Source: an uncultured Desulfomonile sp. (GTDB lineage Bacteria; Desulfobacterota; Desulfomonilia; Desulfomonilales; Desulfomonilaceae). Taken from it: DNA of 56,570 nucleotides. Made by a program: the position numbers and the translations under genes. Under the pieces are notes generated by a model that had not been told where the DNA came from, did not search any database, and saw only the letters and a list, made by a program, of their open reading frames with translations. Below are positions 16,593-22,548 of the stretch, in pieces; position 1 is the first letter of the stretch; every line of letters starts with the position of its first letter. The stretch lies in NCBI GenBank assembly GCA_903896745.1, contig CAITZA010000035.1, positions 1 through 56,570 on the forward strand, read 5' to 3'.

Positions 16593-16615
16593 CCGGTTCA
16601 TTTAATCTGAACCGG
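16593..16615 (-). terminator. Hairpin overlapping the gvpJ stop codon
   Basis: CCGGTTCA (16593-16600) and TGAACCGG (16608-16615) form a perfect 8-bp stem around a 7-nt loop. The gvpJ stop codon (16598-16600) lies within one arm. As the last gene of the gvpA operon, gvpJ could end here, but no T run follows, so an RNA-stabilising role at the 3' end is equally likely. Confidence 0.4.
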
Positions 16616-16846
16616 CGCATCCTGTTTATGAAACGCCGGATTATTGACCCACCAATCAATACCAATCTCTTTGGCCTTGTCCACAGAGCAGACTACAAGC
16701 CGTATCTGAATTGTTAATAGTTCCACGTCAACGAGTTTGATCTTTATGTCACCCGCTATAACTATTCCCTTGTCCAAGACCCGCTCCAGCAGGTCTGCCA
16801 AGTTCGTGCTTTCAACAGAATGTCTGGTGTATTGCTGAACAGCCAT
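16598..16846 (-). CDS. gvpJ: Gas vesicle minor shell protein GvpJ
   Basis: An 82-residue GvpA-like protein. The core follows the GvpA fold pattern: LADLLERVLDKGIVI, then GDIKIKLVDVELL, then QIRLVVCSVDKAKEIG. The changes GDIKIKL instead of DAWAKVSL, and IDWW after the core, fit GvpJ/GvpM rather than the main shell protein GvpA. Minor shell proteins are thought to form the tips or help nucleation. An AAGGAGGA site precedes the ATG by 5-6 nt. It is the last gene of the operon that begins with gvpA. Confidence 0.85.
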   Translation of the reverse strand: MAVQQYTRHSVESTNLADLLERVLDKGIVIAGDIKIKLVDVELLTIQIRLVVCSVDKAKEIGIDWWVNNPAFHKQDAPVQIK

Positions 16847-16857
16847 ACTGGTCCTCC

Positions 16858-17271
16858 TTACAGCAACTTGCCGAGCGGACCGAGGTCGAGATTCAAGTCT
16901 TTTTCTTCAAGATTAAATTCCTTGCGTAATCTCTCGATCTCCTGCGCTTGTTTCATCAAAGTCAATCCAAGATTCTCTATTTCGGTGTCAGTCAGAGACC
17001 CTGCTTCCATTCTACGGATAGCCTGACGCTCGAGCAATTCATGAAGCAGTTTGATCAACGTTAAGACGAGCTGTCCGAGGCCATTTTTTACATTGTCCTT
17101 ATCCAAACTGATCCTGGGCGCGTCGTGTTCCCTATCATGTTGATGCAAAGAACCAACATTCATTATCTTTGCAAAATCAGCGAGGTTTTCGGAGCTGATT
17201 ATCCTGTCATGTGCGCCCAGAGACTCCGAATCACTCTCCGGGTCATTAACCCTGTAAACGGATGTTCCCAA
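16858..17271 (-). CDS. gvpK: Gas vesicle protein GvpK
   Basis: A 137-residue protein whose second half is clearly GvpK: VKNGLGQLVLTLIKLLHELL, ERQAIRRMEAGSLTDTEIE, then MKQAQEIERLRKEF. GvpK is needed for vesicle assembly in several bacteria; its exact role is unclear. The first 48 residues are poorly conserved and Asp/His-rich. The start is a TTG (17271) with AGGAAAG at proper distance; no good ATG lies before the conserved core. It is 11 nt upstream of gvpJ and 82 nt downstream of the gvpS-like gene. Confidence 0.88.
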   Translation of the reverse strand: MGTSVYRVNDPESDSESLGAHDRIISSENLADFAKIMNVGSLHQHDREHDAPRISLDKDNVKNGLGQLVLTLIKLLHELLERQAIRRMEAGSLTDTEIENLGLTLMKQAQEIERLRKEFNLEEKDLNLDLGPLGKLL

Positions 17272-17353
17272 TTAGCTTTCCTGTATCAGGACATTTATGA
17301 TGCCCCGGAATCAATATAGGTTGAAAGATCGGGCTTCACTAACCCGGTTCTCA

Positions 17354-17563
17354 TCATGATTGCGAAAAATAAGGAACACTTTCGGATTCCTTAAGTCCAA
17401 GCCGTCGCCCCGTCTCCACTGAACTCAGGATTATTTGAAGCCCAAGGTAAATGAGATCCACGTTAGCTACAGATATGGTAACATCTCCAACTATAACAGC
17501 GCCTTTGTTCAAAACCCTGTCAAGCACCTCACAGAGAGACACATTCTTGTTTTCATCTTCCAT
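17354..17563 (-). CDS. gvpS: GvpA-family minor gas vesicle protein (GvpS-like)
   Basis: A 69-residue GvpA-family protein. The pattern is CEVLDRVLNKGAVIVGDV, then ISVANVDLIYLGLQIILSSVETG. The GDVTISVANVDLIYL segment and the short tail resemble GvpS of Bacillus more than GvpA or GvpJ. Proteins of this kind are minor shell or assembly factors. An AAGG site lies upstream of the ATG. It sits between gvpG and gvpK, an order also seen in other bacterial clusters. Confidence 0.75.
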   Translation of the reverse strand: MEDENKNVSLCEVLDRVLNKGAVIVGDVTISVANVDLIYLGLQIILSSVETGRRLGLKESESVPYFSQS

Positions 17564-17598
17564 AAGAAACCTTATCCAGTCACAAGCCGAGCGAAGCC

Positions 17599-17982
17599 TC
17601 AGGCGTCAGAAACGTCATCTCCCGGTTCGGAATTCAGTATTTGAATGCTGCTTCCACTTTCAAATTCTTCATCTTCATCGGAATCCTCGTCATCTTCGTC
17701 ATCTTCCTCGTCGTATTCCTCGTCGTATTCGTCATCTTCCTCGTCAATTACAGCGCCTACCTCCTGCAGACTGTCCAGCCTGTCGAGAAGTTGAGCTTCT
17801 CTCTGATCAAACTCCTCTTCACTGATGGCGCCTGATTCCAGCGACATGTAAAGTTTTTGCAGTTCAACGGTTATAGACTCAGTTTCATTTTGACGTTCCT
17901 GCTTGGCCGCCTTGTGGATTTCCTCAAAGACCCATAGAACGCCTTTGAAGGGAGCCATTAAAATGTCGTCAACAATGAACAT
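17599..17982 (-). CDS. gvpG: Gas vesicle protein GvpG with long acidic tail
   Basis: A 127-residue protein. Residues 1-75 are typical GvpG: FIVDDILMAPFKGVLWVFEEI, then a helix with ELQKLYMSLESGAISEEEFD, ending REAQLLDRLD. Residues 80-110 are almost all Asp/Glu with a few Tyr, an unusual acidic extension. GvpG belongs to the accessory proteins that bind GvpA monomers with GvpF/L. The gene lies 23 nt after the third gvpF/L and 35 nt before the gvpS-like gene. A GGGGAAAA site precedes the ATG. Confidence 0.88.
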   Translation of the reverse strand: MFIVDDILMAPFKGVLWVFEEIHKAAKQERQNETESITVELQKLYMSLESGAISEEEFDQREAQLLDRLDSLQEVGAVIDEEDDEYDEEYDEEDDEDDEDSDEDEEFESGSSIQILNSEPGDDVSDA

Positions 17983-18005
17983 GTTTTCCCCGGCGACGAT
18001 CGAGC

Positions 18006-18773
18006 TTATGACTTTATATCAACCTCTACGAAATTATGAGGGGCCCATGGTCCGTTATAATCAAAAGCGAAGTTGTCATCAAAGTGATTGGCCGCCTCAA
18101 AGACTACGGCCTCAAATTTATCGGTCTGTCCACGACCGATGAGGCAGGCCAAATTCATCACTTCTCGCTCATCCTTGCATTTGTTCCTTTTTACTTCGGA
18201 ACAGGCCTTGAGGAGTATTTTTTCCACGAAATCTGTCTGGTCCTCACGTTCTGAGTCCAGGATGTTGGCAAAGAGTCTGCCAAGTTCGATTTTTTCGTCC
18301 TGGGTAGCCTCGCGGCTTCTTCCGATGAGCTGATCACGAGCCGTTCGCAGTTCTTCGTTCCTATTCACAAGGAACTCAAAAATGTTTATGACGTCAAGAT
18401 TCACCTTGAGGCCCATCTCCACTTTTCCGGCCACTCTGGCAAGGCCGTCGATGATGGATTTCTGATGCTTGGCCAGAAACTTTCTCACAGCGGCTGAGCC
18501 CTCTGAAACGTTACCGAACGACATAGGCAAGAGATCGCCCGTTTCAAGGAGTTTCTTAAGGACAGCCTGATGGGCGGCAAAGTTTCGTCGTTCAGGCCTG
18601 ATACGTCCGCTTGGCGCGTCAGAGACTACAGCGGAGACTTCGCCCGATGAAATGGTGTAAACATTGCTGCCGTTGATTCCGATAGTTCCGAATGAACGAT
18701 CTTCAACTCCGGAAGTAATGGCATATATGTAACGCCCAGTCTGTCCCGGAATTTTTTTGGTTCTTTTTTCCAT
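18006..18773 (-). CDS. Gas vesicle protein GvpF/GvpL (copy in gvpA operon)
   Basis: A 255-residue GvpF/L protein. Seen: GRYIYAITSG at the start, a middle stretch with AAHQAVLKKLLE and LLPMSFGNVSEG (the usual P[MF]xFG motif), and the C-terminal FDYNGPWAPHNFV, which is the diagnostic GPWxPYxF-type ending. GvpF and GvpL bind GvpA and are thought to chaperone it or nucleate the shell. ATG 18773 is preferred, since an upstream extension to 18869 encodes a segment with no family likeness. It is the third GvpF/L copy of the locus and the only one within the gvpA operon. Confidence 0.88.
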   Translation of the reverse strand: MEKRTKKIPGQTGRYIYAITSGVEDRSFGTIGINGSNVYTISSGEVSAVVSDAPSGRIRPERRNFAAHQAVLKKLLETGDLLPMSFGNVSEGSAAVRKFLAKHQKSIIDGLARVAGKVEMGLKVNLDVINIFEFLVNRNEELRTARDQLIGRSREATQDEKIELGRLFANILDSEREDQTDFVEKILLKACSEVKRNKCKDEREVMNLACLIGRGQTDKFEAVVFEAANHFDDNFAFDYNGPWAPHNFVEVDIKS

Positions 18774-18942
18774 ATTGCACCAGAGTTCGAGATTGTTTTG
18801 GAAATAATCGATAAAATAGACGCTTCTATAAAAAGAAAGCCGATTGGAAAGTCGGCCTCCAGGTGTCATGAGACACAGCGTCGGGATAGTCCGATTCTCA
18901 CAACGGCATTTTAACTCATTATAAAATATTTACAAGCTCAAC

Positions 18943-19435: not shown

Positions 19436-19804
19436 CTAGTACCTAATTTTAAACCCGTCCTTATCCCTTATAGCCCCTTTACCGGAAATATTGAACTGAT
19501 CCTTGGCCACTGCGCATACAGGTCTGCCTGTCGTCCGTCCCGCAAGTTTTGGAGCATCCTTGTCGGATATTCCCAGTCCCTCGAGAATGGCTCTTTTTTC
19601 GTTTTCAATGTCGCAAATTCTGGCGTCAATGTTTCGGATTCTGGCCAGAGCGCTACTCTTCTCTTTCTCGCGCCGCGCTCTCTCCATCTCAAGACAGCTA
19701 ATCTTCATGAATGCGAGGTATGGGAGTCCTACGGCATCCACGCGCCCTGCATAAGTACGGATTTCTCGAACTCCTCGAATGTCAGCGGTCTTTTTTATTT
19801 CCAT
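19436..19804 (-). CDS. Coiled-coil gas vesicle accessory protein (possibly GvpV-like)
   Basis: A 122-residue protein with an N-terminal basic segment, a central helix rich in Glu/Arg/Lys (about residues 37-78: EMERARREKEKSSALARI, then RICDIENEKRAILEGLG) and a Gly/Lys-rich tail. The helix and the segment PYLAFMKISCLEME before it recall GvpV of cyanobacteria, but similarity is weak. ATG 19804 has AGGAG seven nt upstream. It lies 15 nt downstream of gvpN, so it is co-transcribed. Naming it GvpV is inference. Confidence 0.6.
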   Translation of the reverse strand: MEIKKTADIRGVREIRTYAGRVDAVGLPYLAFMKISCLEMERARREKEKSSALARIRNIDARICDIENEKRAILEGLGISDKDAPKLAGRTTGRPVCAVAKDQFNISGKGAIRDKDGFKIRY

Positions 19805-19819
19805 TGTCAACACTCCTGA

Positions 19820-20821
19820 TTAAAGGTCTGCAAGTTTTGGAGCGGTCTTCCTGACGCTTTTGTTTTGACGGCAAACTTTCTTGATTATTTCATCGACTTT
19901 CTGCTTCATCAATGACTCACCACCGCGTGTAACCTTTACTGTATCAGTGTTTAGCACGTCACGGCAAATCCACTGGAAGGTTTTGTCCGTCTCAGAGGCA
20001 GTAGCGCCGAGATGCTGCAACACGCGACTGATGGCTATGCAGGCCCTGATTGTCGGCCTATGATTGTTCACACCAACCTGTCGCAGTTCCCTTATAATAT
20101 CAACTATTATTTCAGCGTCCTTTCGGGGAACGCCGGATTTGGCCATGGTAATCTGAATTTCTGTTTCCCGGTCATAGTGATTTACATTTATCGTAATTAA
20201 CCTGTCCATTAGAGCGTCCTGGGTTTTGTGGACACCTGCATATTCCTCAGGATTAGACGTAAAAATTGCTCTAAAGTCAGGGTGGACTTCCATATAACCC
20301 TCACCTGTTCTTCTAAGGCTCGGGAGATTCAATATTTTCTCTTCCAGAATGCTCAAAAGCACGTTATTGGCTTCAGGTCTGGATCGGGTAAACTCGTCAT
20401 AAATTAAGGTGTATCCGTCTCTACATGCTGTTGTAAGTCTATTATCGACCCACAGGCTTCGCATTTCCTCTTCGGTTCTTACGACCGAATGGATGAAGTT
20501 ATCAACCAGTTTGGATTTTTTATATCCTGCGTCTCTACCAACCAAGTCTGAGCTTCCAAATTCATCGTCTCCATGGACCAGTATGACAGGTCGACTCAGA
20601 CGCGCCGCTATATGGAATGCTAGAGTCGTCTTTCCGGTGCCTGCTGGTCCGGCGAAATGAACTGAGTACCCAACAGCTAGATAGGCCATCGCCCTTTCGC
20701 TGAGTTCTTTAACGTAGAGCGTGTTAACAAATTGATCACTCGCCTCAGGAAGAACATTGTCCTGATCGGATTTAATTATTTCTGAATCTAGGGCCTCTAT
20801 CTGAGAATCGGGATTTATCAT
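19820..20821 (-). CDS. gvpN: Gas vesicle AAA+ ATPase GvpN
   Basis: A 333-residue MoxR-class AAA+ ATPase. Walker A GPAGTGKTT is at residues 58-66, followed by VILVHGDDEFGSSDLVG, which is typical of GvpN, Walker B YTLIYDEFTR, and the sensor region AIFTSNPEEYAG. GvpN is thought to remodel or recruit shell components during vesicle growth. A GAG-type ribosome site precedes the ATG. The gene lies 105 nt downstream of the six-motif zinc protein, with a GCCGGC hairpin in between, and 15 nt before the coiled-coil gene. Confidence 0.92.
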   Translation of the reverse strand: MINPDSQIEALDSEIIKSDQDNVLPEASDQFVNTLYVKELSERAMAYLAVGYSVHFAGPAGTGKTTLAFHIAARLSRPVILVHGDDEFGSSDLVGRDAGYKKSKLVDNFIHSVVRTEEEMRSLWVDNRLTTACRDGYTLIYDEFTRSRPEANNVLLSILEEKILNLPSLRRTGEGYMEVHPDFRAIFTSNPEEYAGVHKTQDALMDRLITINVNHYDRETEIQITMAKSGVPRKDAEIIVDIIRELRQVGVNNHRPTIRACIAISRVLQHLGATASETDKTFQWICRDVLNTDTVKVTRGGESLMKQKVDEIIKKVCRQNKSVRKTAPKLADL

Positions 20822-20926: not shown

Positions 20927-21298
20927 TCAAGCTAAAATAAAACCTTTGCCGTGGCATCTGATGCAGGCTAGTGCGGGAGCAGAGCCATCATCACCAGATC
21001 CTGCGCATACAGGGCATGATACTATAGGCGCCGAGGGTAACGGCACATGACCCTTGCCACCACAAGTCGTACAGGTGAGCGTCTTCACGGCTCCGGTGCC
21101 ATTACAGTGCGGACAGACTTTATAGGGCGCCTCAATGTTGACGACGCCCCTACCACCGCATATGCAGCACGTGGACAGCCATGACATGACCCCAAAGGGG
21201 TCAGTTCCAGAGCCACCACAAAATGCGCAAGTTATTTCAGTCATGTTTGGTTGATCGACGCCATGCTCAGCTATTAATTTTTCATTTTGCCGTTTCAT
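20927..21298 (-). CDS. Zinc protein with six CxxCxGxG motifs (DnaJ-type)
   Basis: A 123-residue protein made almost only of zinc motifs: CAFCGGSG, CCICGGRG, CPHCNGTG, CTTCGGKG, CPVCAGSG and CIRCHGKG. In DnaJ four such motifs form two zinc sites that bind unfolded protein; here six would form three. There is no J domain or peptide-binding domain. The first 25 residues are a polar lead. ATG 21298 is preferred to a TTG at 21316. Placed between the GvpC-like gene and gvpN, it is probably a holdase for shell proteins, but that is inference. Confidence 0.85.
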   Translation of the reverse strand: MKRQNEKLIAEHGVDQPNMTEITCAFCGGSGTDPFGVMSWLSTCCICGGRGVVNIEAPYKVCPHCNGTGAVKTLTCTTCGGKGHVPLPSAPIVSCPVCAGSGDDGSAPALACIRCHGKGFILA

Positions 21299-21316
21299 GG
21301 CTTTACTCGTTATCAA

Positions 21317-22105
21317 CTATTTCTTGTCTTTCTTTTTTGCTCCCATTCCTGAATCGACCGGAGCGGGGGCTGTTTTCTCTTGTTCCACCGGCTTCGTTTC
21401 TGCAAGCGCTTTTGCTCTGGCTTCCGCCAACAGCTTGGCTTTCATCTCGGCCTCAGCCTTGGCTTTTTGTTCAGCAAGCATCTTGGCTTTTCGTCCAGCT
21501 GGTGACAGTGTATTCCAGGCTTTTCTCGCTCCAGCCATATCATCGGCATTAACCCGCCGCATTGCGCTGACTTCTGCATCCAAAGCGGATACAAACTTCT
21601 TTCGGTCGGCTTTGGCGGCCTTGGCCTTCTTGGCGTGATCAGCCTTGAACCCATCCATCATAACTGCTGTTTCGTTAGCTTTTGCGGTTACGAATTTAAC
21701 GACGTCCTTTACGAATGCCGTGTTTTCCCTTTTGGTCTTAACCGCCATATCCACGCGAGCTTTGTGGTAGCCAGTCAACATATTGGATATGTTGTTCGCT
21801 ATATTTGAAACGAACTCCACATTTGCTTTCTTGGTTTTCTCGGCCATCTCGGCATGGGATTTGTCAAAAGACTTGAGCATGCCGGCGACTTCCGCATCAA
21901 GATTGGACACGAACTTAACTCTGTCGGCCTTCGTACGTTTTGCCATATCCATGTTGGCCTTACGAAAACCGTTCCGCATCGTGGCAACCTCAGACTTCAT
22001 CTCTTTGGTCTCACGATCCAACTGATTGGAAAAAATCTGGCGAGAATCCCTCAGGGCGACTATTTCGTCGCAGAGTCTGGTTATGTCATCGGTCAGATTG
22101 CCCAT
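21317..22105 (-). CDS. gvpC: GvpC-like repeat protein of the gas vesicle shell
   Basis: A 262-residue helical protein. Residues 43-75, 76-108, 109-148 and 149-181 are repeats of one unit: each begins Met-x-x-[GS]-[FY], has a [DEK]MA-x-[KR]TK-type centre and an FV[SK] at positions 23-25. Three units are exactly 33 residues; the third is 40, a 7-residue insertion. GvpC of cyanobacteria is built from 33-residue repeats and stiffens the vesicle from outside. After the repeats comes an Ala/Lys/Glu-rich helix (about 205-240) and a short Lys tail. Position between gvpA and gvpN is typical of gvpC. The sequence itself is not close to cyanobacterial GvpC. Confidence 0.75.
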   Translation of the reverse strand: MGNLTDDITRLCDEIVALRDSRQIFSNQLDRETKEMKSEVATMRNGFRKANMDMAKRTKADRVKFVSNLDAEVAGMLKSFDKSHAEMAEKTKKANVEFVSNIANNISNMLTGYHKARVDMAVKTKRENTAFVKDVVKFVTAKANETAVMMDGFKADHAKKAKAAKADRKKFVSALDAEVSAMRRVNADDMAGARKAWNTLSPAGRKAKMLAEQKAKAEAEMKAKLLAEARAKALAETKPVEQEKTAPAPVDSGMGAKKKDKK

Positions 22106-22202
22106 TAGTCCTCCTTCTCTAAAGCGCCCGACACATTGGACGATAGTCTACATCAAGTAGTCGCCGCTATACAATCGGGCTAGCCAGACGGACTCGGTGC
22201 TT

Positions 22203-22228
22203 CGGGGGGGTTATATTTACCGCCCCCG
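22203..22228 (-). promoter_or_regulatory. GC-rich stem-loop between gvpA and gvpC-like gene
   Basis: CGGGGG (22203-22208) pairs with CCCCCG (22223-22228), and two further G-C pairs form beyond a bulged G. The loop is AT-rich. There is no T tract on the minus strand. Such a structure after gvpA could protect or partly terminate the gvpA message so that the main shell protein is made in excess over the downstream genes. Confidence 0.45.
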
Positions 22229-22258
22229 GCGCAGTAGGAGTCCCAAGTGGCTTCAGCC

Positions 22259-22477
22259 TTATGCAGGAGCGGCGGCGCTGGCAGTAAGACCAATTGCTTC
22301 GGCATATTTTAGATAGGTCTCGACCGATGCGATTACAATTCTCGCCTCGACTGAGAGCAGCTCGATACCAACCAATGAAACCTTCGCCCAAGCGTCGATC
22401 ACGATACCTTTGTCCAAAATCCTGTCCACAACCTCTGCGAGGCTGGATGAATCTGTTGATTTCGCTATCTTGGCCAT
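22259..22477 (-). CDS. gvpA: Major gas vesicle structural protein GvpA
   Basis: A 72-residue protein nearly identical in pattern to Gvp[41 protein letters not shown] and [15 protein letters not shown]. GvpA polymerises into the ribbed wall of the gas-filled vesicle. The tail is short and Ala-rich. ATG 22477 has a GGAGG site 7 nt upstream; an ATG at 22489 lies inside that site. It is the first gene of the operon and is preceded by a sigma-54-type promoter about 72 nt upstream. Confidence 0.97.
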
Positions 22478-22548
22478 TTGACCCTCCATTTATTTTTTGT
22501 TTTTGCCTTTACAGGCTTTTTATGTTTGGCATGCCGACCTTAGTTATT

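Follow-up and report, generated by a model that had tools for sequence, protein, structure and literature searches.

What kind of protein is encoded between gvpA and gvpN in a gas vesicle cluster of Desulfomonilaceae, and how does it relate to the GvpC of cyanobacteria? The locus lies in a window of 56,570 nucleotides (the whole stretch of DNA analysed), a single contig out of 497 in the assembly (Desulfomonilaceae, Desulfobacterota). A sequence-only reading had placed a divergent GvpC built of 33-residue repeats at 21317-22105. The coordinates proved correct and the strand is minus: the plus strand is interrupted by stops there, and the open reading frame runs from 22105 to 21317.

The gvpC-like gene and its neighbours

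In the window and in relatives the gene is found directly after gvpA and before gvpN, inside a complete gvp cluster. The order on the minus strand is gvpA, the gvpC-like gene, a DnaJ-type gene, gvpN, a gene at the gvpO position, a zinc-ribbon gene, gvpF/L, gvpG, a gvpS-type gene, gvpK and a gvpJ-type gene (Table 1). Upstream lie genes for a response regulator, a histidine kinase, two gvpL-type proteins, a CDC48-type ATPase, Hsp20 and a sigma-54 regulator, the last five of which were named by sequence and by their counterparts in relatives.

Table 1. Features of the gvpC-like gene and of the surrounding gvp cluster (residue numbers refer to the gvpC-like protein)
Feature	Position	Strand	Evidence or remark
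gvpA	22259..22489	minus	NF006874, 6.3e-39; start perhaps at internal MAK
gvpA-gvpC intergenic region: G/C hairpin and strong ribosome-binding site (AGAAGGAGG)	22106..22258	minus	sequence comparison
gvpC-like gene	21317..22105	minus	262-residue ORF, open from ATG to stop
N-terminal cap, residues 1-42	21980..22105	minus	conserved MGxLTxDIxRLCxEIxxLRxxR
Unit 1, residues 43-75, 33 aa	21881..21979	minus	repeat HMM 56.5 bits (in seed)
Unit 2, residues 76-108, 33 aa	21782..21880	minus	repeat HMM 52.9 bits (in seed)
Unit 3, residues 109-148, 40 aa (33+7)	21662..21781	minus	anchor interval 40
Seven extra residues in unit 3, ~135-141 (VVKFVTA)	21683..21703	minus	alignment gap block against 4 x 33 relatives
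Unit 4, residues 149-181, 33 aa	21563..21661	minus	repeat HMM 48.1 bits (in seed)
C-terminal cap, residues 182-208 (MRRVNADDMAGARKAWNTLSPAGRKAK)	21482..21562	minus	R183, D189, G192, A193, W197 invariant in 17 sequences
Lys/Glu/Ala tail, residues 209-262	21320..21481	minus	some paralogues without tail
Small DnaJ-type CxxCxGxG zinc protein	20927..21316	minus	PF00684, 2.7e-9; directly follows the gvpC-like gene
gvpN, AAA ATPase	19820..20821	minus	TIGR02640, 7.8e-107
Small protein at gvpO position	19436..19813		without Pfam match; conserved across relatives' clusters
gvpF/L, gvpG, gvpS-type, gvpK, gvpJ-type genes	16598..18869	minus	same cluster

The GGGG/CCCC stem of the intergenic hairpin is retained in nearly all of 11 sequences with zero covariation, and because covariation is absent no function is claimed for it; such a hairpin could restrict readthrough and so leave GvpA in excess over GvpC. 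The small DnaJ-type zinc protein has no J domain; its gene follows the gvpC-like gene and precedes gvpN in the Desulfomonilaceae-type loci and in several others. It may act as a chaperone specific to GvpC or GvpN.

Repeat units and their lengths

The four units that had been proposed, three of them of exactly 33 residues, were recovered with the repeat HMM and with an anchor model, as 33, 33, 40 and 33. All four begin with Met, carry an aromatic residue at position 5 (F47, F80, Y113, F153) and have FV at positions 23-24, as had been read from the sequence; the TK-type centre holds for three units, at positions 16-17, and is AK in the remaining one. Unit 3 reached 29.3 bits with a repeat HMM built without it. 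Self-similarity of the protein by offset (BLOSUM62) has its maximum at 33 (mean 0.82; shuffle 99th percentile 0.08), a value attained by none of 1000 shuffles, so the 33-residue period is real, and it is retained in relatives; the second-highest peak is at 40.

The seven extra residues of unit 3 (context FVKD-VVKFVTA-KANETAV, exact placement ambiguous) add a second F-V pair seven residues past the first. Two caps common to relatives had been overlooked: an N-terminal one (MGxLTxDIxRLCxEI), whose end matches the latter half of a 40-type unit, and a C-terminal one (DLxGARxAW). The tail contains no cysteine, and the net charge of the protein is +18.

Across the family, 69 intervals were obtained from the anchor model, which was set on unit starts only: 33 (45 times), 40 (17 times), 44 (twice) and 18, 26, 54, 65 and 66 (once each), many of them from close relatives and hence not to be counted as independent events. 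The 40-residue unit occurs in the window genus and, at the same position, in its sister genus, and also in two other bacterial families, each represented by a protein of 40-33-40-40 (L075 and L091); it is thus present in at least three bacterial families. Three loci from two other genera of the window's family (L029, L030, L031) have four units of 33 without the insertion. The N-terminal cap, too, differs between groups by exactly seven residues, 42 against 35, the latter being its length in other families. The third unit is therefore longer by one heptad, as had been stated, but it is not a single odd insertion, since 33 and 40 are two recurring types.

Homologues without 33-residue periodicity had been named as the observation that would count against a GvpC. 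They were looked for, and pooled self-similarity of 17 representatives gave instead z 21.4 at 33, followed by 13.3 at 40, 7.9 at 29 and 7.6 at 36. Offsets of 29 and 36 are those favoured by a plain amphipathic helix, yet 33 and 40 prevail, and the unit length itself is therefore constrained. No description of 33/40 units in proteobacterial GvpC, nor of this length grammar, its recurrence or its fit to the rib spacing, was found in the open-licence literature.

Occurrence of the family and selection

In a scan of genome contigs, queried with an alignment of the closer relatives, the gene was detected in 12 of the 18 genomes from the same family (Desulfomonilaceae-type) and in 20 of 395 genomes sampled from the phylum; the assemblies of relatives carry the names Deltaproteobacteria, Syntrophaceae and Desulfomonile, and by these relatives the host is placed as Desulfomonilaceae-type. 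All 20 phylum-sample genomes with the gvpC-like gene also have gvpN, which was above the cut-off in 27 of the 395. Within the same bacterial family, genomes without gvpN are also without the gvpC-like gene, the incomplete genome G013 excepted. In the seven phylum genomes that have gvpN and a gvpC-like match below threshold, and in G233 with a split gvpN, a protein in or beside the pre-gvpN slot retains similarity (E 4e-11 to 5e-5, for a search space of one with filters off), and one of these eight residual slot proteins shows a clear 33 period. Among close relatives dN/dS is 0.11-0.25; the gene is under purifying selection.

Pairs of gvpA and a gvpC-like gene are also found beyond the main cluster. 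The window's own genome has a second gvpA with a two-unit gvpC-like gene adjoining histidine kinases (L021 4673-5439, G000:C294), and genome G004 carries gvpC-like genes on five contigs. Loci of other families (L032, L078, L080, L084, L089, L090) show a tandem arrangement of gvpA, a short gvpC-like gene, gvpA and a gvpC-like gene of two or more units, with very short proteins (72-87 residues) alongside longer ones. The GvpC-like proteins of L075, L086 and L091 have a C-terminal helix-hairpin-helix/DUF4332 domain, unexpected for a vesicle shell protein.

No match was returned by a plasmid search with the window protein or by searches of PDB sequences with the window protein and with the cyanobacterial consensus. 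Weak Pfam/NCBIfam matches to PhiKZ gp91, Get5 and EntC, far below the cut-offs and typical of a helical, Lys/Ala-rich sequence, were discarded.

Helix type, GvpA lattice and proposed role

In all sets, that of Nostoc GvpC among them, the hydrophobic moment had its maximum at 97.25-99 degrees per residue, the value of an 11/3 helix. It was significant in six of the eight sets; both window segments were below significance (window protein p 0.21), unlike those of several relatives. AlphaFold2, run with ten sequences, gave a low-confidence model (pLDDT 60) with a helix over residues 59-198, unbroken at the insertion, and this prediction agrees with a long single helix.

One 33-residue GvpC repeat lies on four GvpA, with 12.1-12.7 Å per subunit (PMC9994262, PMC10185304). 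At 1.5 Å per residue 33 residues make 49.5 Å, at most 1.3 Å from four subunits, and 40 make 60 Å, 0.5-3.5 Å short of five; on an 11/3 helix 33 residues preserve the phase and 40 shift it by about 33 degrees. The GvpA docking helix alpha2 is nearly identical in Nostoc and in the window lineage, a 13-residue segment of it being identical, and both types of GvpC therefore meet the same lattice.

We regard the protein as the GvpC of Desulfobacterota gas vesicles with a probability of about 0.88, which applies to the GvpC role and not to the register. This identity is well supported by the gene position, the co-occurrence with gvpN, the 33 period in relatives, the 11/3 helix periodicity of the family and the GvpA docking surface. 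We infer that the half unit and the four units would form one long amphipathic helix along the outer face of the GvpA rib, its hydrophobic stripe resting on the exposed alpha2 of successive GvpA subunits, and that the helix bound in this way would stiffen the shell against collapse. Against the GvpC reading stand the missing PF01304 match, the different spacing of the aromatics, the non-significant moment of the window protein, the low confidence of the AlphaFold2 model, the shortfall of a 40-residue unit against five GvpA and the occurrence of other unit lengths (44, 26, 18). Experiments on any family member were not found in the open-licence literature.

The protein could instead be an assembly factor encoded in the gvp cluster, a generic amphipathic helix or coiled coil that acts like a chaperone and is not bound to the rib. 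Such a role would accord with an AlphaFold2 model that yields only a long helix, with the additional C-terminal helix-hairpin-helix domain of some relatives and with sub-threshold apolipoprotein-type matches. We consider it very unlikely: a generic helix would not retain 33 and 40 over 29 and 36, the unit length fits the GvpA spacing, and copies outside the main cluster, too, form pairs with gvpA.

For the GvpC role, each 33-residue unit would cover four GvpA subunits and the 40-residue unit presumably five, placing the window protein in a 4-4-5-4 register. A more speculative proposal, less probable than not, is that the GvpA lattice quantises the length of the units, 33 reading four subunits and 40 five, and that the mixes of different lineages (33-33-40-33; 40-33-40-40) act as a vernier matching the helix to the rib spacing and hence to vesicle diameter. 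A competitor to the four/five register only, with a substantial chance somewhat short of even, is that 33 and 40 reflect insertions neutral to helix phase (plus seven) and unrelated to GvpA spacing. An insertion of seven residues, about two turns of the helix, would roughly retain the hydrophobic face, and the 44 (33+11) of one lineage is better accounted for by phase than by lattice. On phase alone, however, with 98.2 degrees per residue, plus 11 should equal or beat plus seven, yet 40 outnumbers 44 (17 against 2, not all independent), and few of the 14 lengths tabulated (18-51) have both a small lattice misfit and a small phase error, 33 and 40 being among these and 26 similar.

Relation to GvpC of other groups

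A GvpC of this kind is already known, given the proteobacterial GvpC of PMC4982088 and the haloarchaeal repeats of PMC9501494. GvpC is conserved in seven proteobacteria, with the gvp cluster of Desulfomonile tiedjei among those discussed, and in Serratia sp. ATCC 39006 the vesicles of a gvpC mutant had a collapse pressure of 0.1435 MPa instead of 0.4334 MPa (PMC4982088). Both organisms have the cluster type of the window, the Serratia GvpC having been compared by description only. Haloarchaeal GvpC has helical repeats of 32-40 residues (PMC9501494); that of Halobacterium salinarum shares the gvpA-gvpN slot and the helical repeats with the window protein, but is strongly acidic and has a C-terminal zinc-finger domain, whereas the window protein is basic with a cysteine-free tail. 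Against the family model haloarchaeal GvpC scored no higher than shuffles. The helices of apolipoproteins A1/A4/E (PF01442) are likewise 11-residue-based and amphipathic on a curved surface; PF01442 matches were sub-threshold and confined to distant relatives, and the likeness is one of analogy, not kinship.

With cyanobacterial GvpC (PF01304; Anabaena flos-aquae, Nostoc) the window protein has in common the gvpA-gvpN slot, tandem 33-residue helical units, the 11/3 periodicity seen in its family and the GvpA docking helix. It differs in the 40-residue unit, in its caps, in aromatic spacing (18/15, from positions 5 and 23, where Nostoc and the published consensus have 22/11) and in net charge (+18; Nostoc -6). 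The Leu/Phe/Arg face of the published consensus (F11, F33, R19) was not found in the window repeats when their sequence was read against it. Sequence homology is not demonstrated, and the low likeness noted earlier was borne out. The repeat-profile search against GvpC that had been suggested gave no PF01304 match at E up to 10 for five relatives or up to 1 for the window protein, and none in 22 genomes, with Nostoc GvpC as a positive control at 7.5e-48; hhalign against Nostoc GvpC was not significant (P 0.13, probability 0.4 %). The Nostoc HMM score of 13.3 bits was unmatched in a plain shuffle null (0/300), a result that was dropped in favour of the stricter column permutations preserving period and class. 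Since 5 of 300 of these equalled the score, homology to Nostoc GvpC is not claimed.

The slot protein of Methylocella is significantly related to the family, with 26.1 bits (0/300 nulls; hhalign P 1.2e-4). On plasmids of Methylosinus and Methylocella the genes in the gvpA-gvpN slot (L092 4447-4953, L093 4243-4986), annotated as hypothetical, are related to the family. Those of Spartinivicinus and Octadecabacter were rejected as members, having no 33 period or clear family match.

The earlier reading had left two possibilities, an ancient and highly diverged GvpC or a rib spacing that selected the same period twice. Sequence comparison by PF01304, hhalign and the HMM nulls cannot decide between them. 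We favour ancient common descent with cyanobacterial GvpC over convergence, at about 70 to 30, because the slot is occupied in Desulfobacterota, cyanobacteria, haloarchaea and alphaproteobacteria and divergence is fast inside one phylum; position and helix type favour it as well. A separate origin with the same function, the invariant GvpA lattice having twice favoured a 33-residue unit on an 11/3 helix, would explain why PF01304 is negative although its control works, the hhalign result, the nulls that equal the Nostoc score and the different aromatic spacing, as the lattice alone could impose the period. It appears the less probable course, since the four groups share one slot, the alphaproteobacterial Methylocella protein still scores with the family, and members of the family are hardly recognisable as such even inside one phylum, so that lost similarity is to be expected.

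Annotation of the Pfam type overlooks GvpC in Desulfobacterota and in some alphaproteobacteria, whose slot protein is still listed as hypothetical. The family ties GvpC sequence to the rib geometry of GvpA in a way that can be tested: if 33 and 40 do track four and five subunits, the register would be readable from sequence and usable for the design of shell stiffness.
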